In this document: positions 2,214 through 62,999 of the stretch, one piece after another
Position numbering within the stretch: position 1 is the first letter of the stretch
Layout of the letters: the number at the start of each line of letters is the position of its first letter
NCBI GenBank assembly: GCA_000153385.1
Contig: CH672374.1
Span: 1,490,544 to 1,554,543 of the forward strand
Reading direction: 5' to 3'
Source of the DNA: Flavobacteria bacterium BBFL7
Lineage (GTDB): Bacteria; Bacteroidota; Bacteroidia; Flavobacteriales; Flavobacteriaceae
DNA length: 64,000 bases
Notes under the pieces: model-generated
Databases searched by the model: none
The model's input: only the letters and a program-made list of their open reading frames with translations
What the model was told of the DNA's origin: nothing
Program-made: the position numbers and the translations under genes

Positions 2214-2233
2214 ATCGCTTTCGCGAAAGCGAT
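2214..2233. repeat. Iterated palindrome, exact copy
   Basis: Perfect 20-bp palindrome ATCGCTTTCGCGAAAGCGAT containing the exact 16-bp unit, between maeB and the terminator of the sugar operon. Confidence 0.9.
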
Positions 2234-2251
2234 AATTTGTCACTACTAAAT

Positions 2252-2283
2252 AAAAAAAGCCGTGATTTTCATCACAGCTCTTT
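2252..2283 (-). terminator. Rho-independent terminator of the sugar operon
   Basis: On the minus strand a 9-bp stem (AGCTGTGAT / ATCACGGCT, one G-U pair) with a GAAA loop is followed by a run of seven T. It lies about 20 bases after the fructokinase stop codon. Confidence 0.85.
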
Positions 2284-2301
2284 CTTCCAAAACTTGGCTA
2301 A

Positions 2302-3237
2302 CTAAACTAAATCATTGAAAATATTTTTTAACCCAACCATATCAGGCAATCGGCCCACATTTTGCAACTTAATTGTGGCAAGTTTTTGTGCCATAGAGAT
2401 AGATTCACGTAACGATTTACTTTGAATTTGAGCATATAAAAAACCAGCCCAAAATGCATCTCCAGCACCTGTTACATCTTTTATATCACTAATTTTAAGT
2501 GCTTCTTGATGTAATAGTCCAAAATTGAGATCAGAAACAGTCACGCCTTCCTTGCCTTTAGTAAGACAAATGGTAGTAACTCCCAAAGAATGGAAATAAT
2601 CAAAAATCTCATCATCAGATTTATGTGAATCAAAATATCGGTAGCAATCATCAATACTTATTTTAAGTAATGGATTATAAGAAAGATATTCTGAAATAAC
2701 CTCTTTAGCTTTCTTACGATCTGGCCATATTTTTTCTGAGTAATTGAGATCTATACTTAATTGTAGACCTAATTGGCTAGCGCGTTGCGCTCCTTTTAAA
2801 ATAGTATTTCTAGCAGGATTTTTACTTAAAGCAAAACAAGTTGTATGATAAATTTTTGATAAATCTAATAACGCATCTGTCACTAATTCTTCTGGTATGA
2901 CACAATCTGCTTCTCTATAAGCAGTAAAATCTGGTGTGTCTATTGATTTAGAAACTAAAATGATGGAAGTAGGTAAACCCGATGCTCTATGTATATAAGA
3001 TGTATCAACATCATTATCCTTCAATTTATCGACGATAAAATCTCCTAATCCATCTTTACCACATGAGGCTATTATAGCAGAATTCAAACCTAACCTTGCT
3101 GCATTAACAGCGACATTAGTAGGCGATCCACCTAAAAAGCGATGGTAGTTCTTAGTATCTGAAATACTTGCATTCTTTTCATGACCTATAAAGTCAATTA
3201 ATATTTCCCCTATACACAATATATCAATGGTCTTCAC
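2302..3237 (-). CDS. Fructokinase-like PfkB-family sugar kinase
   Basis: A 311-residue ribokinase/PfkB-fold kinase that phosphorylates a sugar with ATP in the cytoplasm. The sugar-binding signature GGSPTNVAVNAARLG is near residues 36-50, and the catalytic anion-hole signature DVTGAGDAFWAGF is near residue 255, with the family's base Asp in GAGDAF. The start is a GTG at 3235-3237 whose first base overlaps the stop codon of the upstream glycosidase (TAGTG), so the two are translationally coupled. It is the last gene of a permease-glycosidase-kinase operon and ends at a strong terminator. Fructose is the likely substrate because the permease resembles sucrose transporters and a sucrose-cleaving glycosidase would release fructose. 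Substrate assignment is inference; family assignment is firm. Confidence 0.85.
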   Translation of the reverse strand: MKTIDILCIGEILIDFIGHEKNASISDTKNYHRFLGGSPTNVAVNAARLGLNSAIIASCGKDGLGDFIVDKLKDNDVDTSYIHRASGLPTSIILVSKSIDTPDFTAYREADCVIPEELVTDALLDLSKIYHTTCFALSKNPARNTILKGAQRASQLGLQLSIDLNYSEKIWPDRKKAKEVISEYLSYNPLLKISIDDCYRYFDSHKSDDEIFDYFHSLGVTTICLTKGKEGVTVSDLNFGLLHQEALKISDIKDVTGAGDAFWAGFLYAQIQSKSLRESISMAQKLATIKLQNVGRLPDMVGLKNIFNDLV

Positions 3238-5825: not shown

Positions 5826-5897
5826 AATTACATTGGTGAAAACAATAAAATAGCTAATTCTAAACTTATATTAAAGCTATATGAAATGTGGCGGACA

Positions 5898-5913
5898 CGC
5901 ATTCGCGAAAGCA
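5898..5913. repeat. Iterated palindrome, degenerate copy
   Basis: CGCATTCGCGAAAGCA differs from the 16-bp unit at two positions. It lies in the 238-base gap between the permease and receptor genes. Confidence 0.6.
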
Positions 5914-12207: not shown

Positions 12208-12223
12208 CGCTTTAGCGAAAGCG
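12208..12223. repeat. Iterated palindrome, one-mismatch copy
   Basis: CGCTTTAGCGAAAGCG differs from the unit at one position. It lies in the divergent gap between ruvB and the peroxiredoxin-like gene. Confidence 0.75.
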
Positions 12224-17192: not shown

Positions 17193-17927
17193 TTACTCGC
17201 CTTCAGTTGATGAATGATTTTCTTCTTGACTATCGTGGTCGCCATCATGAGAATCCTCATTGTGCATTTCAACACTATGCTCTTCTACAACGTGACCTTC
17301 AGTATGAGTATCTAAACTTGTAACATCTTCAACGGTAACAAATTCTTGAACATCCTGACCTTTTAAATCTCTAGTTAAAGCATCTACATGATGAGCTATT
17401 TGCCATCTTTCTTCTATTGAAGTCTGAGATGCGTAAGAACCCATATAATTAATTCCCCAATACATCACGTGATAGATCGAACCTTGAGAAATATCGCGAT
17501 CTGCATAAGATGGTACTCCTAAAATCTTTTCAGTTTTTACTAGGTGTCCTTTTCCATCTCCCTTAGTACCATGACAAATTGCACAGTATATATTATAAAG
17601 CTCTTGACCAGAGGCAAGATTTTCTTCCGTATATGGTAAAGGATTCTTTAAATCTGCTTTCGCGGAAGCGTATCCTTCATTGCTATTAGCATATTCATAT
17701 GGCAACCAACCTCTATTTACAGTTCCTTCAACAGGTAGTTGAGCTTCTACATTTCCTTCAAATATATCACCTTCCTGATAGGTTTCATAACCTACAGATT
17801 CATACATATTTGGAAAATATTGTACACTTCTATCCGACTTAGCATCTACTGCATTACTATCCCCACCACATGATACAATCACAAGTGAAGCAAAGGCGTA
17901 AATGAATGTTTGAAAATATCTATTCAT
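17193..17927 (-). CDS. actE: Alternative complex III subunit ActE, monohaem cytochrome c lipoprotein
   Basis: A 244-residue secreted lipoprotein. The N-terminus ends in a lipobox (LVIVSCGG, Cys at about residue 20), and a single c-type haem motif CAICHGTKGDGKG is near residue 116, with HVMYWGINYMGSY supplying a distal Met. The C-terminal 35 residues are strongly His- and acid-rich (HVVEEHSVEMHNEDSHDGDH). A degenerate copy of the genomic palindrome lies inside the gene and encodes the segment ASAKA near residue 90. The ATG overlaps the actD stop codon by one base. It is the electron-carrying exit subunit of alternative complex III. Confidence 0.93.
   Translation of the reverse strand: MNRYFQTFIYAFASLVIVSCGGDSNAVDAKSDRSVQYFPNMYESVGYETYQEGDIFEGNVEAQLPVEGTVNRGWLPYEYANSNEGYASAKADLKNPLPYTEENLASGQELYNIYCAICHGTKGDGKGHLVKTEKILGVPSYADRDISQGSIYHVMYWGINYMGSYASQTSIEERWQIAHHVDALTRDLKGQDVQEFVTVEDVTSLDTHTEGHVVEEHSVEMHNEDSHDGDHDSQEENHSSTEGE
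17655..17670. repeat. Iterated palindrome, degenerate copy inside actE
   Basis: TGCTTTCGCGGAAGCG, two differences from the unit; encodes ASAKA in ActE. Confidence 0.7.
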
Positions 17928-19932: not shown

Positions 19933-22900
19933 TTATGCGTTTCTTACTTTAACCTGGTATATCACGTTAGGTTCTGTTCCTACTTCTTCTAACAAGTGAT
20001 ACATACGGTCGCTATTTTTAAGCTTAGTGATCTCAGCATCTTTATCATTGATATCACCAAATTTGATAGCTCCTTCTGAACATGCATTCGAACATGCTGT
20101 AGCAAATTCACCATCTTTAATCATACGACCATCTTTCTTAGCTTCAAGAATTGTCATTTGCGTCATTTGCATACACATAGAACATTTCTCCATCACTCCT
20201 CTTGATCTCACAGTAACATCCGGATTGATCACCATACGACCTAAGTCGTTATTCATATGGTAATCAAACTCATCATTTCCGTTATATAAGAACCAGTTAA
20301 ATCTACGTACTTTATATGGACAGTTGTTTGCACAGTAACGTGTACCTACACAACGGTTGTAAGCCATATGATTTTGACCTTGACGGCCATGTGAAGAAGC
20401 CGCCACTGGACATACTGTCTCACATGGTGCATGGTTACAGTGCTGACACATCACTGGCTGGAACGCTACCTGAGGATTATCGGCTGGGTTTTCCAACTCA
20501 CCAAAACCACCTAAAGAACCATTATCACCAAATAAACCTTCAAATCCATCCTTCTTCTCTTCATCAGCCTCAAAGCTATCTGTAGAGGAATAATACCTAT
20601 CAATACGTAGCCAATGCATATCACGAGATTTTCTAACCTCATCTTTACCTACAACTGGCACGTTATTTTCTGCGTGACAAGCGATAACACAAGCAGCACA
20701 ACCTGTACAAGCATTAAGGTCTATAGACATATTGAAATGATGACCCGTTGAACGATCAAAGCTAGTCCACAAATCTACGTCTGGTGATGTAACAGGAGTC
20801 TCTATATGATTAAGAGAAACTTCCGGCATCGGATTAAAGTCATGCTTATCACCGTTAATGTATGTTGCTAGATCAGTCTCGCGAATAATATCACGACCCA
20901 TCATAGTATTTTGTAATTGAGTACAAGCAAATTCATGCTCACCACCAGCGTTTTCTACTGATACCGTTTGAACAGAAGATCCACCTTTAAAAAATGGATA
21001 AGCATTCACACCAGTCTGCATTTCTGATTGTATAGAAGCTGTCTTACCATAACCCAAAGCGATACCAATAGTACCTTGTGCCTGGCCTGGCTGAATTAAA
21101 GCTGGCAACTTGCGCTCAACACCATTCATTTTAACCACTACATAGTTACCATTCAAACCTCCGTTTGCTACGTTTTCATTTTCAACACCTAGTTGCTCAG
21201 CATCTTTTTGCGAAATAGTAACGTAATTATCCCACGTTGTACGTGTGATAGGATCTGGAAGCTCTTGTAACCATGGGTTATTAGCTTGCGCACCATCACC
21301 CAAACCTGTTTTAGTATAAAGCGTCAGCTCAAAGCCAGATGGCTTTTTAGAACTTACTAATTGTGAAAGTGCACTGTTATTTGAAACTGAAGCTACAAAT
21401 TCAGCTGTATTTTCATCTGATTTCAATCCAGTATTTGAGGTGAAAAAACCATCTTGTAAAGCTTGAGACCAGCTCGCACCACTATTAACAGATGATTCTT
21501 TTAAAAAGTCTTTATAAGATTGATCACTACCCGACCAAATCAACAAAGTGTCCTGCATTTGACGAGTATCAAAAATCGGACGAATTGTAGGCTGTGCTAA
21601 AGAAACTAAACCTTTCTTTATTTCAGTATCTCCCCAAGACTCTAAATAATGAGGTGTCGTTGCAACATAATCACATTTCTGTGCAGTCGCATCTTCACGA
21701 GAAGCAAACGAAACAGTTAACGACACATTCTCCATCGCTTTCGCGAAAGCGTCACTATCATCATAACTATAGATTGGATCAACGCCTGCTACAAACAACG
21801 CACCTACAGCTCCAGCGTGCATTTCTTTAACCAACTGATCAACAGCTAAACGATTACCTTGACGGGTCATTATAGGAGCAGCAGTATCTACTATAGAACT
21901 ATTTAATTTTTCATTAATAGCTAGCACTAATTGCTGAGCAGCCTGGTCAGGAAGACCACACAACACAACTGCCTTACTACCAGCTTTTGAAAGCTTTTGA
22001 GCAGTTTGCTCAACTACTTTAGAAACCTTATCACTCAAAGAAACATTTGCAGCACCACCAACTAACTTACTATATAAAGCAGCAAGGATATGTTTTTGCT
22101 CTGTAGGAGTAACAGGATATCGTAAATCAGCATTTGCACCAGAAAGAGTCATGTTAGACTCGAACTGAACATGATGCGACATACTTTTACTAGTAGGAAT
22201 TCTTGATGCAGAATATCCTTTGTCGAATCCGCCACCTTGCCAGTTACCTACAAAATCAGCTCCTATTGAAACAATTGTTTCAGCATCAGTAAAATCATAG
22301 TCTGCAAGACCACGAACACCATACTTTGCTTCAAACGCATTCAATGCTCCATCTTCACCTACAGTATCATATGTTACATGACGTACGTTAGGATACTTAG
22401 CCTTCAACATATCAATGATAGCTAAAGTAGAAGGACTAGCAAACGTCTGAGTCAACACAGCAAGTGTCTTACCATTTAAATCATTCAACTTTTGACTAAC
22501 CTCTTTATCCAAAGTCTCCCATGTAGACTCAACACCTTTTACCAGCGGAGTTTTCAAGCGGTTATTATCATATAAAGACAAAACAGAAGCATGAACACGC
22601 GCATTGGCATGACCACGATATTGTGCATCTTTATTACTCTCAATTTTAATTGGTCGACCTTCACGAGTCTTAACTAATATACTAGCAAAATCATAACCAT
22701 CTGCGATAGTCGTTGCATAGTAGTTAGCCATTCCAGGAATAATTTGTTCTGGTTGATTAACGTAAGGCACAGAATGTATAACAGGTCCTTCACATGCCGC
22801 TAGCGATGCTGCAGCAGTACTAAAACCAACATACTTTAAAAAATCACGACGTGTGGTAGAAGACTCTTCCATCACCTCATTATTTCCTAAAAATTCTTCA

Positions 22901-23004
22901 GTAGGAATTGGTGTAGCAAATTCGTTTTGCTCAAGATTTTTTACAATCTCATTGCTTTCATCGAGTTGCGCTGTACTTTTCCAATATTTCTTAGTAGTAG
23001 CCAT
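19933..23004 (-). CDS. actB: Alternative complex III subunit ActB (molybdopterin-like plus 4-cluster Fe-S protein)
   Basis: A 1023-residue fusion of a molybdopterin oxidoreductase-like domain (about 90-720, a relic that in this family holds no molybdenum) and a C-terminal ferredoxin-type domain. The Fe-S cysteines are in CTGCAACVIACH, CQHCNHAPCETVC, CVGTRYCANNCPYK and CSMCMQM...CSNAC. The N-terminal segment around residue 52 (TTRRDFLKYVGFSTAAASLA followed by AC) is Tat-like with a following Cys, so the protein is probably exported folded and lipid-anchored. An exact palindromic repeat lies inside the gene and encodes AFAKA. It lies 21 bases after actA. Confidence 0.95.
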   Translation of the reverse strand: MATTKKYWKSTAQLDESNEIVKNLEQNEFATPIPTEEFLGNNEVMEESSTTRRDFLKYVGFSTAAASLAACEGPVIHSVPYVNQPEQIIPGMANYYATTIADGYDFASILVKTREGRPIKIESNKDAQYRGHANARVHASVLSLYDNNRLKTPLVKGVESTWETLDKEVSQKLNDLNGKTLAVLTQTFASPSTLAIIDMLKAKYPNVRHVTYDTVGEDGALNAFEAKYGVRGLADYDFTDAETIVSIGADFVGNWQGGGFDKGYSASRIPTSKSMSHHVQFESNMTLSGANADLRYPVTPTEQKHILAALYSKLVGGAANVSLSDKVSKVVEQTAQKLSKAGSKAVVLCGLPDQAAQQLVLAINEKLNSSIVDTAAPIMTRQGNRLAVDQLVKEMHAGAVGALFVAGVDPIYSYDDSDAFAKAMENVSLTVSFASREDATAQKCDYVATTPHYLESWGDTEIKKGLVSLAQPTIRPIFDTRQMQDTLLIWSGSDQSYKDFLKESSVNSGASWSQALQDGFFTSNTGLKSDENTAEFVASVSNNSALSQLVSSKKPSGFELTLYTKTGLGDGAQANNPWLQELPDPITRTTWDNYVTISQKDAEQLGVENENVANGGLNGNYVVVKMNGVERKLPALIQPGQAQGTIGIALGYGKTASIQSEMQTGVNAYPFFKGGSSVQTVSVENAGGEHEFACTQLQNTMMGRDIIRETDLATYINGDKHDFNPMPEVSLNHIETPVTSPDVDLWTSFDRSTGHHFNMSIDLNACTGCAACVIACHAENNVPVVGKDEVRKSRDMHWLRIDRYYSSTDSFEADEEKKDGFEGLFGDNGSLGGFGELENPADNPQVAFQPVMCQHCNHAPCETVCPVAASSHGRQGQNHMAYNRCVGTRYCANNCPYKVRRFNWFLYNGNDEFDYHMNNDLGRMVINPDVTVRSRGVMEKCSMCMQMTQMTILEAKKDGRMIKDGEFATACSNACSEGAIKFGDINDKDAEITKLKNSDRMYHLLEEVGTEPNVIYQVKVRNA
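21736..21751. repeat. Iterated palindrome, exact copy inside actB
   Basis: Exact CGCTTTCGCGAAAGCG; read on the minus strand it encodes AFAKA within DSDAFAKAMEN of ActB. Confidence 0.9.
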
Positions 23005-24515: not shown

Positions 24516-24535
24516 TACGCTTTCGCGAAAGCGTA
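24516..24535. repeat. Iterated palindrome, exact copy
   Basis: Perfect 20-bp palindrome TACGCTTTCGCGAAAGCGTA in the divergent gap between actA and the SPOR protein gene. Confidence 0.9.
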
Positions 24536-30580: not shown

Positions 30581-30596
30581 CGCTTTCGCGAAAATG
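30581..30596. repeat. Iterated palindrome, half-degraded copy
   Basis: CGCTTTCGCGAAAATG keeps the left arm and centre; the right arm has decayed. The copy at 60492 shows the same variant. Confidence 0.65.
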
Positions 30597-30965: not shown

Positions 30966-33900
30966 ATGAAATTGAATTACAATCAACTTAATAAAATAGC
31001 AGGCTGGGTCGTGTTTGCGATAGCCTTATTCACTTATTGGCTTACTGTCGAACCAACTGTGAGCTTTTGGGACGCAGGGGAATACATTGCTACATCTTCC
31101 GGACTTCAAGTTGGGCATCCACCTGGGGCACCGCTTTACCAAATGCTAGGTGCATTTTTTTCCATGTTTGCTTTAGACAAGAGTCAGATTGCTTACATGG
31201 TAAATATGATGTCAGTTTTCTCTAGTGCATTTACTATTTTATTTATGTTTTGGTCATTAACATTATTGTTGAAAAGGCATATCATTAAAGAATCTAGTAA
31301 CGATGTAATGATCCTAGGAGCTGCCGCAATAGGTAGTCTTGCGTACACATTCTCTGACAGCTTCTGGTTTAATGCGGTAGAGGCAGAGGTTTACGCACCT
31401 GCAGCATTATTAATGAGTGCATTGTTTTATATGGGGTTATTGTGGGAACGAGATATGTTTTTACCTCGTGGCAATAAATGGCTAGTCCTGATATCTTTTA
31501 CGGTTGGTCTATCATTTGGAGTCCACTTTATGGGAATACTTACTATACCGGCAATTGGAATGCTTTGGTACTTTAAGCACTACAAAAAAATCACTCCTTT
31601 AAATTTTGTTATAGCAAATATTTCGGTGGTTGCTGTATTACTTTTTGTATTCAAGCTACTACTACCCTACACTTTATCCATTTTTGGATATATGGAAGTG
31701 TTCTTTGTAAATGACATAGGACTACCTTTTAATTCTGGTTCCATTATCATGTTACTATTAGTAGTAGCATTATTTGTTTTTTTGATTCGATTTTCGCGCA
31801 AGCGAAACAAACCATTATTGAATACTATCACACTATGTGTCATGTTTGTATTAATAGGTTTTTCTTCATGGACCATGTTACCCATACGTGCTAATGCCGG
31901 CACACCTATTAATGAAAATAATCCAAATGACGCCCGTGCTCTGTTAGCTTATTATAATCGTGAACAGTATCCAGCACCAGCATTATTTTATGGAGAAGCA
32001 TTTACAGATATTTATGCTGGATTAGATCCAGAAAATCCATATTTAGATGAAAAACCTAAATATGAAAAGGATTATGAACTAGGTAAATATGTGATTGTAA
32101 ATAATTATAAGAATTCTTTACAAAACACCCATGATGATCACAAGGGATTATTTCCGAGAATGACAGACCCTTCTAGAGCCACCAATTATATAGACTTTAT
32201 GGGTGGTTTAAATTACTATGTTAAACCAGAGTACGCCTCTAGCATGGAACTTCAAACCGTACTTGCTGACTATAAACGTAATTATGAAAACGGCCGCATA
32301 GGCGCTCAAGAATATGTAGATTTTCTCGTTGAATTAAGAGAAGCCGTTGTAATTGAAAAACCTGATGGCCTAGATAATGCTTCATACTTTTTTAATTATC
32401 AAGTACAGTATATGTACATGAGGTATTTTATGTGGAACTTTACAGGTAGACAAAATGATATTCAAGGTGAAGGAGATCCTTTTAATGGAAACTGGATTAG
32501 TGGAATACCATTTATAGACGAATGGCATCTAGGAACTCAAGATAATTTATCAGAGGATATGTTAAATAATAAAGGTCGCAACACATATTTTTTCCTTCCT
32601 CTTATTTTAGGATTAATAGGAATGATTTTTCATGCAAAGAAGGATTTAAAATCATTTTACAGCACTCTTGTACTCTTCCTTTTTACAGGTCTTGCTATTA
32701 TTGTTTACCTAAATCAAAGTATGTATCAAGTACGTGAAAGAGATTATGCTTACGTGGGTTCTTTCTTGGTTTTTGCTATGTGGATAGGAATGGGTGTGTA
32801 TGCCATTTATGAAGGCATAAAAGATAGTATTTCGGCTAAAACTGCAAGAATCCTTTCTCTCACAATATGTTTTGCAGCAGTACCTCTATTAATGGCTTTT
32901 CAAAACTGGGATGATCATGATCGATCGGGAAAATACTCTGCATTAACAAGTGCTAAAAAATATTTAGACAGTTGTTTACCTAATGCTCTCATCTTTACAA
33001 TTGGAGATAACGACACTTTCCCATTATGGTATTTACAGGAAGTAGAAGGTTATAGAACAGATGTGAGAGTAGTTTGTACATCATTACTTGCTACAGATTG
33101 GTACATGGACGACATGAAGAAGAAAGCGTGGGATAGTGATCCAGTACCTTCTACATTAACTCATGATAAGTACACCTATGGTACCAGAGATGCCTTATGG
33201 TTTGCAGATAAAGAGCGTGTATTGCAGCGTACCGGTGGAAAAAGTTCTTTACCTGACACCTTAGACCTCAAAGACTGGATGGAATGGGTGGCAAGTGATA
33301 AGAAAATTACTCAAGAACAAATGCGTAACGATCATTGGGAACATACTTTCCCTACAAAATTCATACGCATACCTGTAAATAAAGAAGCGGTTCTTAAAAA
33401 TGGCGTTGTACCTCAACGAGACGCTGATAAGATAGTTGATGAAATTGTCATTGAAATTAATAGCAGCTTAGTTTATAAGAACAGAATGTTTATGTTAGAT
33501 ATTATCAATGCAAATAACTGGGAACGCCCGATATATTTTTCTGGTGGAGCATTTGGAGATGATGACTATATATGGATGAAAGATTACCTACAACTAGACG
33601 GATGTGCATTTAGATTATTACCTATTAAAACAGAGCCGGAGAATAGACGTGATCCATTTGACATGGGACGTGTAGATCCAGATCATGGTTATGAGATACT
33701 TAAAAAATGGGATTGGAGAAATAGTGGCGATCCTGATTTATACTATGATGTAGAAACAAGACGTAACAGTGTAGGCTACCGCAGTAATGTAACACGAGTA
33801 GCAGAAGCTCTTACCAAAGCAGGAGATTTTGACAAAGCGGAAGAGATTCTAGATTTAGGTATGGAGAAAATGCCTCTAGACCTTTATGGACATTATTCAA

Positions 33901-35316: not shown

Positions 35317-36555
35317 CTACTTGGAACTCTTTTTAAGAGTAATTACTGTAATTTCGGGCCATATTCCTGCTCTTCCAGAATATCCTAAAAAGCCAAAACC
35401 ACGATTCACGTTAATGAACCTACCGAATTCTTTATAAATTCCTGCCCATTTTTTATAAACAAACCATGCTGGACTTAACTTAATGAATCCTGGAATCTCT
35501 ATACCAAATTGCATTCCATGAGTATGACCACTTAACGTTAAATGATAGTTCAGGTCGTTAGATTTCACATCATCTTCCCAGTGAGATGGATCATGGCTCA
35601 GCAATATTTTAAAATCACTCTTTTTCAAGCCTACAGACGCTTTATTTAAATCACCATATTTGGGAAACCTACCATTACCTATATTTTCTACACCTACAAT
35701 ATTTAAAGAGTCTGCCCCACGTTTTATAGCTATATTTTCATCTCGCAATAATCGCCAGCCCATCTGTTTTTGTATACCATATAGCTGTTCCATATTTGCT
35801 TTCTTTAAAGCAACCACCTCTTCTCTAGATCCTTCCCAACCATAATAATCGCCATAATCATGATTACCCAGTACAGAATAAACACCATCTCTAGCACTTA
35901 ATTTGCCAAATATACTTTCCCATCCATGCATCTCTGTGCTGATGTTATTGACTAAGTCTCCTGTAAAGAAAATAGCGTCACTATTTTGTTTATTAACCAA
36001 GTCTATCGCATACTCGACTTCTTCCCTATCATCAAAACTACCTACATGAATATCACTTATCTGCGTGACTTTATAACCGTCAAAAGCCTGTGGCAAGTCA
36101 TTAAAACTCAACTCATACTCACGTACTTGATAATTATATTTACCTTTCCACGCCCCATAAAGTATAGCACCAAATGGCAGTGCCGCAAGTCCTAAACCTA
36201 CTTTTGAGATAAACTCTCGCCTACTGGGCAAGAAGGCTGTATTTTCTTGCTTTCGCGAAAGCGTATTAACTATACCTTCCACAACTCTATAAATATCCTC
36301 ACCCAACATAATAATCACCATGACAAATTGGGCGGCTAGGAAACCAAGAAATAGAGTTACTGCTATATCTCTTGTAACACTTACCTGACCTCTATCGGGA
36401 TGCCATACAAATTGCATTATCAAATTAACTAATATTAAAACAGTAGCAGCTAGATAGATCCATTTCCACCAGTGACCACGGGAAAGTGTTCTAATCAATT
36501 GAAAAGAATAAACTTGAAAGACAATAAATAGAATTATAGGGATAATGAAACGCAT
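35317..36555 (-). CDS. Membrane-anchored metallophosphoesterase (calcineurin-like)
   Basis: A 412-residue protein with about three to four membrane segments in the first 140 residues (MRFIIPIILFIVFQVYSFQL, WIYLAATVLILVNLIMQFVW), then a Tat-like stretch SRREFISKVGLGLAALPFGA. The catalytic domain from about 155 holds the five phosphoesterase motifs: QISDIHVGSFD, TGDLVNN, LGNHDYGDYYGW, LLSHDPSHW and LSGHTHGMQFG. It resembles YaeI-like phosphodiesterases of unknown, possibly lipid, substrate. An exact-core palindrome interrupts the linker between membrane and catalytic parts and encodes LSRK. Single gene on its strand. Confidence 0.9.
   Translation of the reverse strand: MRFIIPIILFIVFQVYSFQLIRTLSRGHWWKWIYLAATVLILVNLIMQFVWHPDRGQVSVTRDIAVTLFLGFLAAQFVMVIIMLGEDIYRVVEGIVNTLSRKQENTAFLPSRREFISKVGLGLAALPFGAILYGAWKGKYNYQVREYELSFNDLPQAFDGYKVTQISDIHVGSFDDREEVEYAIDLVNKQNSDAIFFTGDLVNNISTEMHGWESIFGKLSARDGVYSVLGNHDYGDYYGWEGSREEVVALKKANMEQLYGIQKQMGWRLLRDENIAIKRGADSLNIVGVENIGNGRFPKYGDLNKASVGLKKSDFKILLSHDPSHWEDDVKSNDLNYHLTLSGHTHGMQFGIEIPGFIKLSPAWFVYKKWAGIYKEFGRFINVNRGFGFLGYSGRAGIWPEITVITLKKSSK
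36248..36263. repeat. Iterated palindrome, exact core, inside the phosphoesterase gene
   Basis: TGCTTTCGCGAAAGCG (14-bp core exact); read as NTLSRKQ in the linker region. Confidence 0.85.
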
Positions 36556-38034: not shown

Positions 38035-38050
38035 CGCTTTCGCGGAAGCC
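38035..38050. repeat. Iterated palindrome, degenerate copy
   Basis: CGCTTTCGCGGAAGCC, two differences from the unit, in the 242-base gap before polA. Confidence 0.65.
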
Positions 38051-42239: not shown

Positions 42240-42255
42240 CGCTTTCGCGAAAGCG
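42240..42255. repeat. Iterated palindrome, exact copy
   Basis: Exact CGCTTTCGCGAAAGCG, 12 bases after the stop codon of the T9SS-sorted protein gene. Confidence 0.9.
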
Positions 42256-44373: not shown

Positions 44374-45447
44374 TTACAAATCTAATACTTCCAGTAGTCT
44401 AGCAAAGTCTTTATTATCATTAAAATAAGAAAAACTAACTCTTATTCCATCACCTCTTAGCGAAGTAATAACGCCATGATTTAATAGCTTATTATATAAA
44501 TCATGACTTCCTTTAATATTGAAAATGGTAGAATGTTGTTTTCTATTCACTACAGCTTTCTCTAGTAAACCACGACTTTCAAATTCGACCTTAGCCGTTT
44601 CAGACCAGTGTTGCAGCTCGTTTTGTATTTTATCTAGACCTATTTTTAAAACCACTTCCATCGCAAGTTTCAAACTACCAAAAGCGATCATATCTTGATG
44701 CCCAGGTTCAAATCTGCCTATAAATTCAGGTATTGCATTTATTACATTTTTAGTACTACGATAACCTATTCTATTAGGATTAATAAGCTCTTTAACTCGT
44801 TCTTTAACACAAATAAACGCATTTCCATCACCAGCATTCAACCATTTATAACAACTTGCTAGCATGATATCTAGTCCGCTTTCGCGAAAGCGGAATCGCT
44901 CAGTCCCTACGTATTGCGTTAAATCACCAATGATTACCATCTCTGGGAACTGATCTTTAAGCTGCTTTACAAATTCTAAGTCAATTTTAATTCCAGAAAT
45001 ATATTGAACGACAGAAAAGCAGAAAATATCTGGCTCGTGTTGTTCGCAAGCGATTTTAATATTTGACTCTAAATTTTCATTAATTGAGGCATAAACACAG
45101 TTAAAACCGCGAGTCTCTACTGGCGAGTTTACAGATGGATAATCACCATCTAGTAATAAAAATTTAGACTGTTTATCAATCCCTTCTATAAGCGTGTTGA
45201 ATCCTGTTGAGAAATTAGGAATAACAGCAGTGTTTTCAATCGTCGCATCTACAAATTGCGCTATTGTAGACCGTACTTCATCAATAAAAACATTTCTAGT
45301 ATTGGTGTATAAACTAGCCTGATCTCGCATTTGCTCCATCACATTGATTCTATAATCAATCAATTCTTGAGAAATTAAGCCATGGTTTGCCGTATTGAGA
45401 TAGGTGTATTTATCAAGAATGGGATACTGAGACCTTATTTTATGCAT
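44374..45447 (-). CDS. PLP-dependent class V aminotransferase (cysteine desulfurase-like)
   Basis: A 357-residue enzyme. Start chosen at the ATG at 45447 (MHKIRSQYPILDKYTYLNTA), since upstream in-frame codons reach across the divergent DHFR gene. The PLP lysine is in ASCYKWLNAGDGNAF near residue 205, the ring-contacting Asp in VIIGDLTQYVG near residue 180, and the class V phosphate region in NFSTGFNTLIEG near residue 75. Fold-family examples include SufS-like desulfurases and kynureninases; lacking the usual catalytic-cysteine loop, it may be another type. An exact palindrome interrupts it and encodes RFRES. It precedes the T9SS protein gene by 18 bases. Confidence 0.85.
   Translation of the reverse strand: MHKIRSQYPILDKYTYLNTANHGLISQELIDYRINVMEQMRDQASLYTNTRNVFIDEVRSTIAQFVDATIENTAVIPNFSTGFNTLIEGIDKQSKFLLLDGDYPSVNSPVETRGFNCVYASINENLESNIKIACEQHEPDIFCFSVVQYISGIKIDLEFVKQLKDQFPEMVIIGDLTQYVGTERFRFRESGLDIMLASCYKWLNAGDGNAFICVKERVKELINPNRIGYRSTKNVINAIPEFIGRFEPGHQDMIAFGSLKLAMEVVLKIGLDKIQNELQHWSETAKVEFESRGLLEKAVVNRKQHSTIFNIKGSHDLYNKLLNHGVITSLRGDGIRVSFSYFNDNKDFARLLEVLDL
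44876..44893. repeat. Iterated palindrome, exact copy inside the aminotransferase gene
   Basis: CCGCTTTCGCGAAAGCGG, an 18-bp perfect palindrome; read on the minus strand it encodes RFRES, a different frame from the AFAKA copies. Confidence 0.9.
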
Positions 45448-45503
45448 TTGTAAAGATTGAAAAGAGCTAGAACTGCTTAAATTTGAATATAAAAGTACGT
45501 CAT

Positions 45504-46406
45504 ATGTTCGGTAGAAAGAAAAAAGAAACGCCTGCGATTGATCCTGTTCAAAAGGAAATGATTGAAAATGCACAGCGTCGCATTAAAGAAAAACGTGGTT
45601 TATTTACACATTTTGTTGTTTTTCTAGTTGGTGCAGTAGGTTTGATTATCATCAGTCAGGTATTAATGCAACAAGAGCCCATGCGTATTCTTAATGTAGA
45701 ATGGTGGATTTGGGTCTTATTTGCGTGGTTGCTCTTTTTAATTTATCATGCCTTTAAGGTGTTTATTACTAACAGACTACTAGGTCCAGGATGGGAGAAA
45801 CGTCAGTATGAAAGGTTGGTCCAAAAACAAAAAGATCGCATTGCTCAAATAGAAGAAAAAGTAACTAAATCAAATCCTTTACCGGAAACCAAAATTATAA
45901 ATACACCTGTTTCTAAAAAACGAGTTATTACCATGATAGCTGCTGCTGGAGCAAACAACGAGTTAGGTAAAGACGGCGATCTCGTATGGCACTTGCCAGA
46001 TGATTTTAAACGTTTTAAATCTCTCACAACTGGACATCACATTATAATGGGTCGTAAAACCTTTGAAAGTTTTCCTAAGCCGCTTCCTAATCGCACTCAT
46101 ATCATACTCACTAGAGATGCTAATTATAAAACTGATGGTGGAATCGTAGTACACGATTTGTCAACAGCACTGGCAGCGGCATCTAGTGATGAAGAACCCT
46201 TTATTATAGGTGGTGGAGAAATCTATAAACTAGGGCTTGAAATAGCTGACCGTATTGAACTTACTAGAGTTCACGGTAGTTTTGATGTCGACACCTATTT
46301 TCCCGAGTTTGACGAGAAACAGTGGAAGCTTATACGCACAGAGCATCATCCAGCAGATGATAAACATGAATATGCTTTTGACTTTGAAACTTGGGAGCGC
46401 ATCTAA
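45504..46406 (+). CDS. Dihydrofolate reductase fused to an N-terminal two-transmembrane domain
   Basis: A 300-residue protein. From the ATG at 45504, residues 1-100 form a 2TM-type domain: a basic helix (MIENAQRRIKEKRGLF), two membrane segments (about 35-54 and 67-86), then GPGWEKRQYERLV and a charged coiled linker to about 135. Residues 141-300 are a complete dihydrofolate reductase: MIAAAGANNELGKDGDLVWH, LPDDFKRFKSL with the substrate-binding Asp, GRKTFESFPKPLPNRTHII and IIGGGEIYKLGL. It reduces dihydrofolate to tetrahydrofolate with NADPH. The 2TM part would tether it to the inner membrane. A TTG seven codons upstream is possible but the ATG is preferred. Divergent from the aminotransferase. 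Confidence 0.9.
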   Translation: MFGRKKKETPAIDPVQKEMIENAQRRIKEKRGLFTHFVVFLVGAVGLIIISQVLMQQEPMRILNVEWWIWVLFAWLLFLIYHAFKVFITNRLLGPGWEKRQYERLVQKQKDRIAQIEEKVTKSNPLPETKIINTPVSKKRVITMIAAAGANNELGKDGDLVWHLPDDFKRFKSLTTGHHIIMGRKTFESFPKPLPNRTHIILTRDANYKTDGGIVVHDLSTALAAASSDEEPFIIGGGEIYKLGLEIADRIELTRVHGSFDVDTYFPEFDEKQWKLIRTEHHPADDKHEYAFDFETWERI

Positions 46407-48776: not shown

Positions 48777-51524
48777 TTATTTGTTGGTATTAAATACGTC
48801 TTCTATTATTCTTGCTTGTCTTGCCTTAGATCGTGTTGAACTACCAGAGGCTGGTGCTGCATACATATTTCTTGAGCACACGCGCCAGTTTCTAGTCTCT
48901 GGCATGTGTAACATAAGATGTGCATAAGCACCCATATTTCTAGGTTCTTCTTGTGCCCATACGACATCTTTAGAACCATATTTTTTCATCACTTCTTGTA
49001 TTTGCTCAATCGGTAATGGGAACAATTGTTCAAGTCTTACCAGCGCAACGTCTGTGCGATTATTTTCTTCTCGATATTCTAGTAAATCATAATAGAACTT
49101 ACCAGATACGAATACTAGTGTTTCTGCTTTCGCGAAAGCGTCTCCATCAACATCTATTACTTCTTGAAAATGTCCGTTTACTAATTCATCTACTGCACTT
49201 ACCGCTTTAGGATAACGCAACAAAGACTTAGGTGTAAACACAACTAATGGTTTACGATAATTTACTAACATCTGACGACGTAGTAAATGGAACATGTTTG
49301 CTGGCGTTGTACAGTTTGCCATAAACATATTATCCTTGGCACATAGTTGCAAGTAACGCTCTATTCTAGCACTTGAATGCTCAGCTCCTTGACCTTCATA
49401 ACCGTGTGGTAATAATTTAACCAGACCGTTTTGATTTTTCCATTTATCCTCACCAGCACTGATGTATTGATCCATCATGATTTGTGCTCCATTTGAAAAA
49501 TCACCAAATTGTGCTTCCCAGATAGTAAGTGTTTGTGGTTGTGCTAGTGCATATCCATATTCAAAACCTACAACACCATATTCTGACAGGTGTGAGTTAT
49601 AAATATCCATTTTACCTTTAACACCATCTATAAGATTATGTAAAATAAACTCGTGTTCACTATTCTCTGATTTTACCACAGCGTGACGGTGTGAGAACGT
49701 ACCACGTTCTACATCTTGTCCACTCATGCGCACATTGTAACCTTCCATCATTAAACTACCATAGGCTAGGTGTTCTCCCATTGCCCAGTCCAGTTTATCT
49801 GCATCAAACATTTTGCGACGGTCCAGAATCAACTTCTTAATTTTTCTAAAGAAATTTTCATCTTCAGGCAGTTTAGAAATCGTTGCTGTAATTTTTTCTA
49901 AGGTTTTGCGGTCTACACCTGTCTCCACCTTTTTCATCATCTCTACCTCAGTAGCTTGTTCAAAACCTTGCCACTCATCTTGCATAAATGGTGTGATGAT
50001 GGTATTTTCTTTTTCACGAGAGGTAGCAAGTTGTTCCTCAAGTTCGCTTTTGTAAGCAGTCTCAAACTTCTCTACCGTATTCTTATCTATAACGCCTTCT
50101 TTAAGAAGTCTATCAGCATAAATATCACGCGGATTCTCATGCTTCTTGATAGCTTTATATAATTGAGGCTGTGTGAACATAGGTTCATCACCTTCATTAT
50201 GACCGTACTTTCTATATCCTAATAAATCTATAAATACATCACGACCAAATTCCATACGGTAATCTAGAGCAAAGTTCATAGCATGTACTACAGCCTCTGC
50301 ATCATCTGCATTAACATGTAATACTGGTGACAAGGTTACTTTTGCGATGTCTGTACAATACGTTGAAGAACGAGCGTCTAAATAATTAGTTGTAAAACCT
50401 ACTTGGTTATTAACCACCATGTGAATGGTACCAGCAGTTTTATAAGCATCGAGTTGTGCCATTTGCACTACTTCATATACAATACCTTGACCAGCGATAG
50501 CCGCATCTCCATGTAATACAATAGGCAACACTTTAGAGAAATCTTCTGGAGAATGCATGTCTTGCTTTGCACGTGCTATTCCTTCTACTACAGCTCCTAC
50601 AGTTTCAAGGTGTGATGGATTAGGCACAATATTAATATTGATATCCTTACCACTATCTGTTTTACGTTTACTGGTATAACCTAGGTGATATTTTACATCA
50701 CCATCAAAAATGTCTTGTTCATAATCTTTTCCATCAAATTCAGAAAAGATATCAGTTACTGGCTTACCAAAGATATTAGTCAGCACATTTAATCTACCAC
50801 GGTGAGCCATTCCTAAAACAAAGTGATTAACACCTTTATTTGCAGCATTTTCCACTAAGGAATCAAGCGCAGGAATTAAAGACTCATTTCCTTCTAATGA
50901 AAAACGTTTCTGACCAACATATTTTGTGTGTAAGAAGGATTCAAAAGAAACAGCCTCATTTAATTTCTTAAGAATTTGCAATTTATCATCCTTAGAAAAA
51001 CTAGGGTGATTATTATTTTTATGTAACCAGTTTTGTATCCACTTCACCTCTGCAGGCTTACGTATATACATATACTCTACACCTATACTCTCACAGTATA
51101 CTTGCTTTAAATGAGCAATAATATTATTAAGGCTAGTTTTCCCTATACCTATTAAGTCACCACTGTCAAACTCTGTATTTAAGTCTGCATCTGACAGACC
51201 AAAGTTGACCAAATCAAGTGTAGGCTCATAAGTACGACGATCTCTTACAGGATTAGTCTTGGTAAATAAATGACCACGTGTGCGGTAGGCATCTATTAAT
51301 TTAACAACCTGAAATTCTTTTTGAACGTGAGCAGGAATTGCAACTGGTGCTGCGGCCTGATCCATCTCAAAATCACCTTCATGGGCGCTTTCCATCCCAA
51401 AGTCGAAACCTTGAAAGAAAGCTCGCCAAGATGGCTCTACTCTATCTGGATTGATTAAATATTCGTCGTATAGTTGTGCAAAGTGCGCTGTATGTGCGGC
51501 GTTCAGAAATGAAAACTTGTCCAT
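48777..51524 (-). CDS. sucA: 2-oxoglutarate dehydrogenase E1
   Basis: A 915-residue thiamine diphosphate enzyme that decarboxylates 2-oxoglutarate and succinylates E2. The N-terminal helix [20 protein letters not shown] is the E2-binding segment; the ThDP region includes [29 protein letters not shown] and [12 protein letters not shown], and the C-terminal transketolase half has [20 protein letters not shown] and [14 protein letters not shown]. An exact-core palindrome lies near residue 800 and encodes AFAKA in [14 protein letters not shown]. First gene of a sucA-sucB operon. Confidence 0.97.
49125..49140. repeat. Iterated palindrome, exact core, inside sucA
   Basis: TGCTTTCGCGAAAGCG; on the minus strand encodes AFAKA in SucA. 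Confidence 0.85.
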
Positions 51525-54242: not shown

Positions 54243-55613
54243 ATGCCCTTTAAAATTAAAATAGCAATACTGCTTTTAGGTCTCGCTTTCGCGAAAGCGT
54301 ATAGCCAACAATCATCACCATCCAGTTATAGCCTGACATTAGATCAAGCGATCGAGCATGGTTTAGAACACAATTATCAATCCATTAACGCAAAACGTGA
54401 TGTAGCTATAGCACTGAAACAGAAGTGGGAAACGACTGCTACAGGATTACCACAAATTAACGGGTCAGTGGATTACACTAATCAACTTAAACAACCCGTA
54501 ACACCATTACCAGGCGAACTCGCTGGTGGCGATCCTGGAACTTTTGTACCTGTTGTTTTTGGACCTAAACAAAATATGACCCTAACAGCAACCTTATCAC
54601 AATTGATATTTGACGGTTCTTATATTGTTGCTTTAGAAGCTTCTAAAACTTTTCTAGACTTTTCTGAAAATGCAAATAATAAAACAAAATTAGAAGTTAG
54701 AAAAGGTATTATTAATGCTTATGGAGGTGTTTTACTGACTGAAGAAAACATCGAGATCATCACTAAAAACCGTAATACACTTCAAAAGAATCTAGATGAG
54801 ACTACAAAAATCTTTGAAAATGGACTTGCCGAAGAAGAAGATGTAGAACAATTACAAATAACATTATCTCAACTGGACAATCAATTAAATAGTGCTACTA
54901 GACAAAGAGAAATAGCTTTAGACATGTTAAAACTAGCATTGGGTATTGAACTATCTATCCCAGTCACTTTAACTGATGATTTAGAAGCACTTACCATGCG
55001 CAACATTGACCCATCTGTAACAGAAGAGTCATTAGATATGGATAAGACCGTGGATTATCAAATTGCCTATAATTTCACTCAGCAAAGACGATTAGAACAT
55101 AAACTAGAACTTGCAAAAGGTTTACCTACTGTTAGCGGTTTTATCAATTATGGAACACAATCATTTGATAGTGATTTTTCGTTTTTCAACAGCAATCAAC
55201 CATGGTATCAACAATCTGTAGCAGGCGTAAGTATTAATGTTCCTATTTTCAGTTCTTTTGCTAGAAAAGCAGCACAGGACCGTACTAAAATAGCTTGGGA
55301 TCAAGCAGAAACTGATTTACAGCGCACCATGGAAGAGATACGTTTAAACTATGCAACAGCTGTAAATAATTATCAAACTGCAATTGACAATTACACCACT
55401 AGTAAAAATAATCTTGCACTGGCAGAACGCATTGAAAATAAGAACACTATAAAATTCAGAGAAGGAATCGCTACCAGTTTTGACCTTAGACAGGCACAGA
55501 CTCAATTATACAGTACTCAAGCAGAATACCTGAATAGTATGTATCAAGTAATTACTGAAAAAGCAAATCTGGAAACCATCCTTAATATACCCAATTACAC
55601 AACCAAAAACTAA
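54243..55613 (+). CDS. TolC-family outer-membrane efflux channel
   Basis: A 456-residue outer-membrane factor. The signal peptide (FKIKIAILLLGLAFAKAYS) contains AFAKA encoded by an exact palindromic repeat at 54284-54299. The mature part opens LTLDQAIEHGLEHNY and repeats the TolC pattern of two similar halves (e.g. KNNLALAERIENKNTIKFRE and SFDLRQAQTQLYSTQAEYLN), giving coiled helical barrel segments. It forms the exit duct for the adaptor and RND pump encoded next. Confidence 0.93.
   Translation: MPFKIKIAILLLGLAFAKAYSQQSSPSSYSLTLDQAIEHGLEHNYQSINAKRDVAIALKQKWETTATGLPQINGSVDYTNQLKQPVTPLPGELAGGDPGTFVPVVFGPKQNMTLTATLSQLIFDGSYIVALEASKTFLDFSENANNKTKLEVRKGIINAYGGVLLTEENIEIITKNRNTLQKNLDETTKIFENGLAEEEDVEQLQITLSQLDNQLNSATRQREIALDMLKLALGIELSIPVTLTDDLEALTMRNIDPSVTEESLDMDKTVDYQIAYNFTQQRRLEHKLELAKGLPTVSGFINYGTQSFDSDFSFFNSNQPWYQQSVAGVSINVPIFSSFARKAAQDRTKIAWDQAETDLQRTMEEIRLNYATAVNNYQTAIDNYTTSKNNLALAERIENKNTIKFREGIATSFDLRQAQTQLYSTQAEYLNSMYQVITEKANLETILNIPNYTTKN
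54284..54299. repeat. Iterated palindrome, exact copy inside the TolC signal peptide
   Basis: Exact CGCTTTCGCGAAAGCG encoding LAFAKA in the signal peptide of the TolC-family protein. Confidence 0.92.
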
Positions 55614-60298: not shown

Positions 60299-60327
60299 TT
60301 TATCCCTATAAAACTGGTTGTTGATAG

Positions 60328-60358
60328 AGCCCTTTTCTATATTGAAAAGGGCTTTTTT
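60328..60358 (+). terminator. Rho-independent terminator of the RND operon
   Basis: Stem AGCCCTTTTC / GAAAAGGGCT with six-base loop and T-run, 29 bases after the stop codon. Confidence 0.9.
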
Positions 60359-60580
60359 GTGTCATTACCTCAACTACAAGTGACTTTGACAGACTGCAAT
60401 TACATTCCTTTTCGATTTATTTATAGAGTCTATTTAAAATAAGAATATACTCCATATCTTTTATAGATCATCCATTATACATCTTCTTTTACGCTTTCGC
60501 GAAAATGTACCTGAATTACCTACTAGTATAATAAAGCTATGATCTACTGTGAAGTTGGTAGTTGACATATAATGCAAACA
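60359..60580. other. Gene-free gap with one palindrome remnant
   Basis: The 334-base gap between the RND and PiT genes contains two facing terminators and a half-degraded palindrome at 60492. I see no ORF or RNA gene in it. Confidence 0.6.
60492..60507. repeat. Iterated palindrome, half-degraded copy
   Basis: CGCTTTCGCGAAAATG, the same variant as at 30581. Confidence 0.65.
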
Positions 60581-60613
60581 AAAAATCCTGCCTTAAAGAA
60601 AGGCAGGATTTTT
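60581..60613 (-). terminator. Rho-independent terminator of the phosphate transporter gene
   Basis: Perfect stem AAAAATCCTGCCTT / AAGGCAGGATTTTT with T-run on the minus strand, 20 bases after the stop codon. Confidence 0.9.
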
Positions 60614-60632
60614 AAATTTAATACAATACGTT

Positions 60633-62894
60633 TTAGTCTTCAAAACGTTTTGCGTCATACTCTGTATAATAGCGTTCTACTACATTCATTGCCGCATTCA
60701 TTAGGTCGCGAGTTTCTAATAAAAGACCAAAGTACAAGGTCGTATTTTTAGGAGAATTCTCAGTATCCTTTGTACGTTTTACTTGCTTATCAATCTTTTG
60801 ATCAATCAGCCCTAGAAGCTCTTGTTTTAAAGTGATGATTTCAGCCAGTTTACCAAAATCCTTTTTAGTAAATATGGTTTGAGATACCGCAAAGACTTCG
60901 TGACTTCTCAATATGATCTCTTTAAGATCTTTAATTTGAGTAAACTTTAAGCTCTTATGATTGTTATCAATGTGTGTCGTTGCAGATTTTGAAATGTAAT
61001 CTAGTGATTGTGATATATCCTGCAAGTTTCCTAATACTTCAATATAGAACTTAGATGCACCTAGGTGTTGTTCATCTAGATTACGAATTAGATAGAAGAT
61101 ATTATTGCGCAATCCATCGATCTCGCTACTTAACTTATTAGCTTCTTTCTTTGAGGATTTTAAGATATTTAAATCCTGAGATATTAATCCATCTAATGTA
61201 TTTTTATAAATACGCTTAGAACGTTTGAAAACTGCAGCAACATTTTCAGAACTTTCATCGATGATACCTTGAATGGTATTACTCTCAGCCTTTTTAAGCT
61301 CTTCTGTTTCCTTTTCTACCTGTTGACTATTCTTATGATTTACAAAGCTGCGTACTAACAAAACAATAGCTATTACCACTAAACCTAGTATTGCATAAAA
61401 ACCACCATAGTATATAACTGCAGCAAATATGGCAGCTGCTGTAAAGGCACTAAAAGCTGTAAAAAACCATCCACCTATTACGTTAAGCACACCTGCAATA
61501 CGATATACAGCACTTTCTGTTCCCCATGCTCTATCTGCTAGTGATGTACCCATGGCAACCATAAAAGTCACGTAAGTAGTTGATAGAGGTAATTTGAATG
61601 AAGTGGCAATCGATATTAATATACTAGCAACCATTAAGTTTACACTAGCTCTCACATAGTCGAACGATGGTTTATCGGCATGCTTAGGTAAAACCGCCGG
61701 TTCTGGTAATTTCTCAAATCTAGATGCGATATAATTAGTAGCTGAATCTGGTAGTACGTGCTGTATAGCCTCTGCAGCATTGAGCGAATAACGTACTAAA
61801 ATTCTAGAAAGAGCATTAGATTGAAAACGCTCTGCTCCACTATCTTGTCTTGCTAAGTCTACAGATGTTTTCACTACAGCCTGTGCTTTTGAAGAAAACC
61901 ATAGCGTAACCACCATCACAATACCAGCAATGACTAGTAACCATTTATTAGATGGTAATTTTTCTCCTAGTGCAGCCATACCATAAGTTGTGGCATCCAC
62001 ACCACTACCGCTCCATGCTTCCCATGCCTGATAAGCACCAATAGGCACACCTATAAAATTAACCAGATCATTTCCTGCAAATGCCATTGCTAGGCCGAAA
62101 GTCCCTAGAATAATAATTAACCTATAGATATCTAATTTTAAGACATACACATATATATAACTGAATAACATCCAAAACACAGTCGCATAGCTTATTAAAG
62201 TAACAACATCCATCTCTGTAAGAAAACTAGTCAGACCACCTAAGTCTGCACCTTTTAATCCCTTAACGATGATAAAGTAGAATAAACTCGTCAAGGATAA
62301 ACCACCGAAAAATCCTGCTAAATAAGCTGGCCTTTTAGAATAATTAAAGGTTAACATCAATCTTGAAAGGAATTGTACCACTGCTCCTATAGTGAAGGCG
62401 ACAACTACCGATAAAATAATTCCCAAAATTATTTCAATAGCCTTATCACTAGCGATGTATTTCCCTAAGTCCAGGATTGTTTCACCAGTCTCACTTTCTC
62501 CATAAATTTTAATTAATGACATAGATACGGCTGCACCTAATAACTCAAACACAATGGATACAGTTGTTGAGGTAGGCAATCCCATGGAGTTAAAGAAGTC
62601 TAATAATAAGACATCAGTAATCATCACTGCCATAAAGATGATCATGACCTCATCAAAATAGAACTCACTAGGCACAAAAATCCCTTTACGCGCAACTTCC
62701 ATCATACCACTAGAAGATAATGCACCTACTGCAATACCTATACTGGCTATAATCATTATAGTCTTAAAGCTTATCGCTTTAGAACCTATAGCACTGTTTA
62801 AAAAGTTTACTGCATCATTACTTACTCCTACGACTAAGTCAGTGATGGCGAGGCCGGCAAGTATAACCAGCATATAAACATAAATATCTCCCAT
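60633..62894 (-). CDS. PiT-family inorganic phosphate transporter with C-terminal PhoU/DUF47-like domain
   Basis: A 753-residue inner-membrane protein. The first half carries the PHO4 signature, with VVGVSNDAVNFLNSAIGSKA near residue 22 and a second copy FAGNDLVNFIGVPIGAYQAW near residue 270, in about 11 membrane segments including MGLPTSTTVSIVFELLGAAV. From about residue 545 the protein continues as a soluble helical domain (ESSENVAAVFKRSKRIYKNT, FYLIRNLDEQHLGASKFYIE) like PhoU or DUF47. Fused PiT-PhoU proteins occur in Bacteroidetes; the fused domain may control the transporter. It is monocistronic with its own terminator, followed upstream by the secreted protein gene on the same strand. 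Confidence 0.93.
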   Translation of the reverse strand: MGDIYVYMLVILAGLAITDLVVGVSNDAVNFLNSAIGSKAISFKTIMIIASIGIAVGALSSSGMMEVARKGIFVPSEFYFDEVMIIFMAVMITDVLLLDFFNSMGLPTSTTVSIVFELLGAAVSMSLIKIYGESETGETILDLGKYIASDKAIEIILGIILSVVVAFTIGAVVQFLSRLMLTFNYSKRPAYLAGFFGGLSLTSLFYFIIVKGLKGADLGGLTSFLTEMDVVTLISYATVFWMLFSYIYVYVLKLDIYRLIIILGTFGLAMAFAGNDLVNFIGVPIGAYQAWEAWSGSGVDATTYGMAALGEKLPSNKWLLVIAGIVMVVTLWFSSKAQAVVKTSVDLARQDSGAERFQSNALSRILVRYSLNAAEAIQHVLPDSATNYIASRFEKLPEPAVLPKHADKPSFDYVRASVNLMVASILISIATSFKLPLSTTYVTFMVAMGTSLADRAWGTESAVYRIAGVLNVIGGWFFTAFSAFTAAAIFAAVIYYGGFYAILGLVVIAIVLLVRSFVNHKNSQQVEKETEELKKAESNTIQGIIDESSENVAAVFKRSKRIYKNTLDGLISQDLNILKSSKKEANKLSSEIDGLRNNIFYLIRNLDEQHLGASKFYIEVLGNLQDISQSLDYISKSATTHIDNNHKSLKFTQIKDLKEIILRSHEVFAVSQTIFTKKDFGKLAEIITLKQELLGLIDQKIDKQVKRTKDTENSPKNTTLYFGLLLETRDLMNAAMNVVERYYTEYDAKRFED

Positions 62895-62983
62895 TTGAGG
62901 CTAATTTAAGAGTGCAAAAATCATACTTTATTAGTTACTGTACGTTACCTAAGTGTTATAAATTCATCTCACTTGTAAGATTC

Positions 62984-62999
62984 CGCTTTCGCAAAAGCG
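62984..62999. repeat. Iterated palindrome, one-mismatch copy
   Basis: CGCTTTCGCAAAAGCG, one difference from the unit, between the PiT gene and the terminator of the upstream gene. Confidence 0.8.

Follow-up and report, generated by a model that had tools for sequence, protein, structure and literature searches.

Why is one perfect palindrome repeated every few kilobases in a marine flavobacterial genome? The question is raised by a stretch of 64,000 nucleotides from Flavobacteria bacterium BBFL7, referred to here as the window, in which the palindrome GCTTTCGCGAAAGC, usually extended to CGCTTTCGCGAAAGCG, recurs in and between genes. In the window's own genome (G000, 3.10 Mb), which DNA polymerase I compared with named relatives places in Nonlabens, a genus of marine Flavobacteriaceae, 551 exact copies are present, and the reversed motif used as control is found 0 times. 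Our tentative answer, which we favour over a nucleoid-organising site, is that the palindrome may be a genome-wide self-address site for recognition or uptake of the cell's own DNA.

Abundance, range and conservation of the palindrome

A first-pass annotation of the window had described the palindrome as highly iterated and far above chance, and the genome-wide count bears this out. The 700-900 copies that it had predicted for the genome were somewhat too many: 151 exact and 27 one-mismatch cores were found in 864 kb sampled of G000, which scales to about 640 cores with no more than one mismatch in the whole genome. All 23 Nonlabens genomes carry 288-857 copies (control 0), the lowest count being that of a genome that is 78% complete. 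The over-representation thus extends through the lineage, as it does for uptake sequences.

Among 397 genomes of the family, 80 hold any copy, namely four Nonlabens, G503 (857 copies), G488 (408) and 74 others (1-19). Hence 391 of the 397 have 0-19 copies, and beyond Nonlabens only the genera of G503 and G488 are rich in the motif. Any copy at all was found in 20 of 296 genomes of the order, with a maximum of 6 apart from G000. In a quick polymerase tree G503 adjoins Dokdonia (support 99) and G488 adjoins Leeuwenhoekiella and others (support 89), the deep order being weakly supported. Two named Dokdonia loci contain 4 and 6 TTTCGCGAAA in 22.6-22.8 kb; of the other 74 named loci outside Nonlabens, two have a single TTTCGCGAAA and the remaining ones have none. 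A lack of the motif in related genera of the same base composition had been named beforehand as a ground for dismissing it. Most such genera do lack it, yet the motif is a feature of those that carry it, and base composition is excluded as its cause by its absence from most genera of similar composition.

Of two genomes of the genus Leeuwenhoekiella, counted at one mismatch, the first has 29 places (9 exact, control 0) and the second 23 (6 exact, control 1); G241 shows 25, of which 6 are exact. At the same tolerance the copies of carriers are mostly exact (408 of 536 in G488, 857 of 1017 in G503). The Leeuwenhoekiella copies look like remnants, as decay after loss of a maintaining force would leave. 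The metal-resistance islands described below may contribute to such remnant counts; G450 has a 73% match to an island.

To follow individual copies, three exact sites near polA, all from one region, were compared in 20 Nonlabens relatives, 17 of them distant, with a few aligned places covered by two blocks. In the 17 distant relatives 34 of 40 aligned blocks are exact, versus 2.3% of control 14-mers. The core at 44877..44892 is exact in 20 of 21 aligned relative blocks and that at 42240..42255 in 9 of 10; the least conserved site, at 36249, is exact in 9 of 18 blocks, counted over all 20 relatives. At 44878, 14 of 14 bases are invariant in the distant relatives, and many adjoining positions vary. 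Two further places in the window were aligned: the one at 30581..30596 is an exact core in all four relatives aligning there (L144, L145, L148, L161), and the one at 38035..38050 is exact in both that align (L144, L145). Between the Dokdonia group and Nonlabens two homologous sites were comparable, one alike in 13 of 14 bases and one not kept; G488 gave none. To judge from these alignments, the copies are kept in place as if by selection.

Anatomy and spacing of the site

Around the core, about 50 bp are two-fold symmetric, with arms that are rich in T and poor in C. These arms were read from the 151 exact cores with flanks in the 864 kb of G000. Outward from the core, both sides alike, the preferred bases are C (about 0.9), a base other than G, T, T and A; farther out there is a T-rich run from -7 to -13 and a depletion of C to about -18. 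This preference is alike for copies inside and outside open reading frames (ORFs, defined by a simple length rule). The flank score has a mean of 10.0 at the 151 training copies versus -12.5 at random places (not cross-validated). Under cross-validation the scores of the left and right flanks are uncorrelated (0.02), and both flanks are good in 125 of 151 copies, where 126 would be expected if they were independent. Complementarity from arm to arm is 0.345 versus 0.348 from composition. The arms are thus not complementary beyond composition, which argues for a protein site on duplex DNA and not for a longer hairpin. The two-fold symmetry together with the joint presence of both arms suggests a dimeric reader. 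In this respect the first-pass annotation was well aimed: the symmetric arms back its view of a probable protein-binding palindrome. No binding protein was found among the candidates tried, a secretin and a ParB paralogue.

Tolerated mismatches are not random along the half-site. The 27 one-mismatch copies of G000 deviate at position 5 (14 copies), 6 (6 copies), 1 (5 copies) and 3 (2 copies), and never at positions 2, 4 and 7. The Dokdonia group shows a somewhat different spread. The arms of G503 are the same as those of G000, and those of G488 are weaker.

The copies also keep their distance from each other. In 400 kb of G000, counted with no more than one mismatch, 82 gaps have a mean of 4.8 kb, and 70 of them span 2-7 kb. 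No gap is below 1 kb, where 15.4 are expected, and the coefficient of variation is 0.45 versus 0.98 expected. Successive gaps are uncorrelated, which indicates local repulsion and no lattice. Each of 40 samples of 20 kb taken around G000 contains 1-6 exact copies, and the ratio of variance to mean is 0.25 at no more than one mismatch (38 samples with under 1000 N). Between exact copies, gaps below 1 kb number 1 versus 8.2 expected in G503, 0 versus 4.5 in G488 and 5 versus 18.7 in G296.

As to genes, 92 of the 151 exact copies lie within ORFs. The 59 others are enriched outside, where 11.7% of the bases lie. Of these, 51 could be classed by the adjoining genes as tandem (33), divergent (10) or convergent (8), and they follow the gap bases of these classes (40761, 14973 and 11978). 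Among the 51, neither convergent nor divergent gaps are favoured; the copies ignore gene orientation. An even spread that includes genes and has no tie to transcription units, as in uptake sequences, is thus found in G000, with G488 and G296 less regular.

Possible functions

A possible interpretation is that a dimeric protein would read both halves of the ~50-bp duplex. Because of the spacing, one site per DNA segment of about 4-5 kb would seem to suffice, and a nearby second copy would be redundant. Site-bearing fragments would be preferentially taken up or processed in natural transformation and would then recombine with the resident copy. By such preferential uptake and recombination, sites could build up and be retained wherever the encoded protein allows. 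In a more specific form, which we regard as slightly more doubtful, the motif would be a palindromic two-armed uptake or self-recognition sequence in Nonlabens, Dokdonia relatives and one further genus, read by a putative dimeric receptor of a pilus-independent competence machinery of the Flavobacteriaceae. To our knowledge it would be the first uptake signal outside Pasteurellaceae, Neisseriaceae and Campylobacter.

The likeness to the uptake signal sequence of Pasteurellaceae and the DNA uptake sequence of Neisseriaceae is considerable. These are genome-wide, evenly spread and of high copy number, with many copies in genes and AT-rich flanking tracts, and so is the Nonlabens motif; their scarcity in new DNA and constrained genes is matched by part of the Nonlabens data. 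Two papers on published uptake sequences describe their even spread, their AT-tracts, their location in genes and how few of them lie in newly acquired or constrained DNA (PMC7811141, PMC1939737). Unlike them, the Nonlabens motif is a perfect palindrome of 14-16 bp with arms on both sides, shows strong local repulsion and occurs in Bacteroidota, with no secretin match in G000. It is also less dense, with about one site per 4-5 kb versus about one per 1 kb for the uptake sequence of H. influenzae, as given in the accessible part of one of these papers (PMC7811141). As background for competence in this family, excerpts of two papers report that Flavobacteriaceae relatives are naturally competent with a machinery that includes proteins unlike known ones (PMC8459023), and that Riemerella columbina favours its own DNA (PMC7965970).

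Several points weigh against a self-address or uptake function. The site is a palindrome, both arms are used equally and independently, and the regularity is strong; known uptake sequences are asymmetric as a general rule. The published motifs, as far as the available parts of the papers go, are asymmetric as well (PMC7811141, PMC1939737). In some carriers even the regularity is less clear: gap variation in G296 is near random (0.92 versus 0.99) because of long gaps, and for G488 as a whole the regularity does not reach significance (p 0.13). Neither competence genes nor the secretin track the motif. ComEC and DUF5689, parts of the Riemerella-type apparatus, are present in all 10 genomes tested, five carriers and five non-carriers. 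In the k-mer table for Riemerella columbina, within the accessible part of that paper, there are A/T-rich repeats only and no comparable motif (PMC7965970). No report of competence in Nonlabens or Dokdonia, and no uptake data for these bacteria, were found among the matches listed from the open-licence PMC literature. Furthermore, 11 of 85 sites in 80 viral loci have good flanks, and the sites in temperate-looking phages and islands require an additional step.

A type IV pilus or secretin was tried as the receptor and rejected: the secretin seen in G296 is without a match in G000, G311 and G306, and none is listed for G503 and G488. A secretin match occurs in 74 of the 397 family genomes, of which 73 are non-carriers and one is a Nonlabens (G317). 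A cognate receptor of the type IV pilus/secretin kind, which goes with known uptake sequences, was thus not found for the motif.

Next in likelihood, and also well short of probable, comes a chromosome-organising site, at which a dimeric DNA-bending nucleoid protein bound once per 4-5 kb would fold or mark the chromosome; close copies would decay and wide gaps would be disfavoured. This would account for the two-fold symmetry over ~50 bp with both arms together, the uniform and regular distribution, the conservation at position and the lack of copies in two near-identical Nonlabens phages. Sites of Noc, ParB and other nucleoid proteins (parS, the Noc-binding site NBS, matS and SlmA sites) are palindromes read by dimers, and parS and NBS also have TTTC/GAAA half-sites. 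However, the half-site spacing of the parS/NBS-type consensus differs from that of the Nonlabens motif, which unlike these sites is spread uniformly in hundreds of copies. For a core chromosome function it would be unusual to be rich in three sampled genera of the family only and apparently decaying in another. Copies also lie on mobile islands and some phages, and no trend in copy density was seen along the 40 samples of G000, in which origin and terminus were not placed. A ParB or Noc paralogue finds no support as the reader, since each of six carriers tested has one ParB hit and no additional ParB-like gene. ParB differences do not track the motif either (four carriers and four non-carriers read), so that Noc, one of the analogues named in the first-pass annotation, is not supported.

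It is improbable that the motif is a methylation palindrome like HIP1, enriched by an orphan methyltransferase acting at TCGCGA or a longer palindrome together with repair or regulation. The perfect palindrome with its TCGCGA centre would suit such an enzyme, as would the high copy number throughout the genome; HIP1 (GCGATCGC) of cyanobacteria is likewise a highly iterated palindrome in a group of genomes, according to the available part of the source (PMC4390886). Yet the Nonlabens motif is different, longer and has extended symmetric arms, and a short methylation site leaves 14 fixed bases and the 18-bp arms unexplained. Strong spacing repulsion is a further trait of the Nonlabens motif. The one-mismatch copies of G000 show no excess of C>T at CpGs (in the Dokdonia group C>T at position 6 makes up 5 of 14). 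A hotspot of 5-methylcytosine was discarded on this ground, and the mutation pattern of G000 thus gives no such sign of the modification at TCGCGA that had been proposed from the window. A bidirectional transcription terminator, RNA hairpin or regulator site is very improbable. Although the palindrome could fold and copies are enriched between genes, the tandem, divergent and convergent copies track the gap bases, the arms pair no better than composition predicts and the majority of copies lies within ORFs. The flanks are T-rich before and A-rich after the core with no T-run after it, and complementary arms downstream of genes were not found, only the 14-16 bp core being palindromic. Terminator or hairpin and promoter readings were ruled out by the gap classes and the arm pairing. 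Least credible of all is descent from a dispersed mobile element or repeat family. Hundreds of copies, some on mobile islands, would be expected of one, but the flanks show a base preference and no common sequence, and neither regular spacing nor conservation at position fits. No longer shared sequence or target-site duplication around the copies appeared in the flank profiles.

The Chi site of E. coli also recurs about every 5 kb; it is an oriented octamer, short and non-palindromic, unlike the symmetric and evenly spaced Nonlabens site. Genome-wide iterated motifs are already known (HIP1, uptake sequences), and the Nonlabens motif stands apart from them by its sequence, size, symmetry, spacing and host group. 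In the open-licence PMC literature no paper was found for the motif string or for a Dokdonia uptake sequence; TTTCGCGAAA is absent from the papers among the matches listed, and no paper on the motif was recognised by title and abstract start under Nonlabens palindromes.

If the uptake function is true, the motif would be a self-recognition code for natural transformation in Bacteroidota; it would give a handle on the DNA receptor and could show which genera act as DNA donors in the sea. As a nucleoid site, it would represent a rare chromosome-wide spacing system with known sequence. In both cases the motif is probably a mark of DNA once resident in a carrier genome and could trace gene flow, because metal-resistance islands of several genera of the family carry it.

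Copies in the window and in mobile DNA

In the window all eight exact 14-bp cores of the first-pass annotation are present where it had placed them, and the shuffle mean is 0.00. Of about nine degraded copies that it had added, seven stand; those near 31788 (4 mismatches) and 52178 (5) were not counted. This gives 15 copies of the 16-mer with no more than 3 mismatches versus 0.11 expected. Nine of the 15 lie outside simple ORFs, with noncoding DNA making up 8.9% of the window; the intergenic bias thus holds at slightly other figures than the 10 of 17 copies in about 6% given before.

Copies of the palindrome in the window, all located by motif match
Feature	Position
Exact 16-bp palindrome, intergenic	2216..2231
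2-mismatch copy, intergenic	5898..5913
1-mismatch copy between divergent ORFs	12208..12223
2-mismatch copy inside ORF	17655..17670
Exact copy in ORF 19933-23004	21736..21751
Exact copy between divergent ORFs	24518..24533
2-mismatch copy, intergenic	30581..30596
Exact 14-bp core, 16-mer with 1 mismatch, in ORF 35317-36555	36248..36263
2-mismatch copy before polA	38035..38050
Exact copy, intergenic	42240..42255
Exact copy in ORF 44374-45573, translated ...RFRES...	44877..44892
Exact 14-bp core, 16-mer with 1 mismatch, in 2-oxoglutarate dehydrogenase E1 ORF	49125..49140
Exact copy close to start of ORF 54243-55613	54284..54299
2-mismatch copy, intergenic	60492..60507
1-mismatch copy, intergenic	62984..62999

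By family hits, ORF 19933-23004 encodes a molybdopterin oxidoreductase/iron-sulfur protein. The 1114-aa ORF at 30966-34310 matches no NCBIfam family at E 0.001, and a plasmid search with one ORF gave no match.

In non-carrier genera the copies are often clustered, and a pair 933 bp apart is common to five genomes. Eighteen loci fetched around clustered copies in these genera include related stretches that are 66-99.97% identical across genera (L124-L139); two genera share one stretch of 19.5 kb at 99.97% identity. The annotated island loci encode efflux pumps, a multicopper oxidase and metal P-type ATPases, with RteC nearby in one, and 32 of 46 island sites have good flank scores. A 2-kb island piece is found with 94 and 92% identity in two Nonlabens genomes, with 92% over 1447 bases in a third and with 85% in G503. 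Carriers thus have the island as well, and we infer that it was donated by them. When compared by BLAST with the carrier stretches sampled, the islands gave short or weak matches only. Island matches were seen in G310, G301, G316 and G503.

The Nonlabens phages P12024S and P12024L (L361, L362), which we take to be lytic, have no integrase among their annotated products. They are near-identical and count as one observation. In the 35 kb of either phage no copy was found at no more than 2 mismatches. TCGCGA itself is absent from the 35 kb of each, where about 3 are expected from composition, possibly by avoidance. In a viral scan, 80 of 120 stretches were examined as loci. Many of the hits lie in DNA of other base composition, and most flanks are poor; viral contigs with good-flank sites encode integrase, transposase, terminase, portal, tape-measure and baseplate proteins.

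Four long gaps of G296 were read in five stretches. One gap holds a SecY/RpoA operon, whose small neighbours presumably encode ribosomal proteins, and in it there are near-matches with 1 and 2 mismatches; an integrase and a relaxase are encoded in another. In the remaining two there are an SbcC-like protein, OmpH-like and RHS-repeat proteins and a secretin operon. The two phages and two of the four long gaps agree with scarcity in new or constrained DNA, but islands and temperate-looking phages carry sites. The secretin/T2SSE operon of G296 (L365:106-6299) includes a weak PilN-like match and a pilin-like protein that matches ComP_DUS below the cut-off. G296 also has two similar clusters (L363:17623-18785 with L364, and L365:6525-17760), with an OmpH-like protein, a family-less protein of 203 aa and large proteins of 1406-1793 aa, one of them with an RHS repeat.

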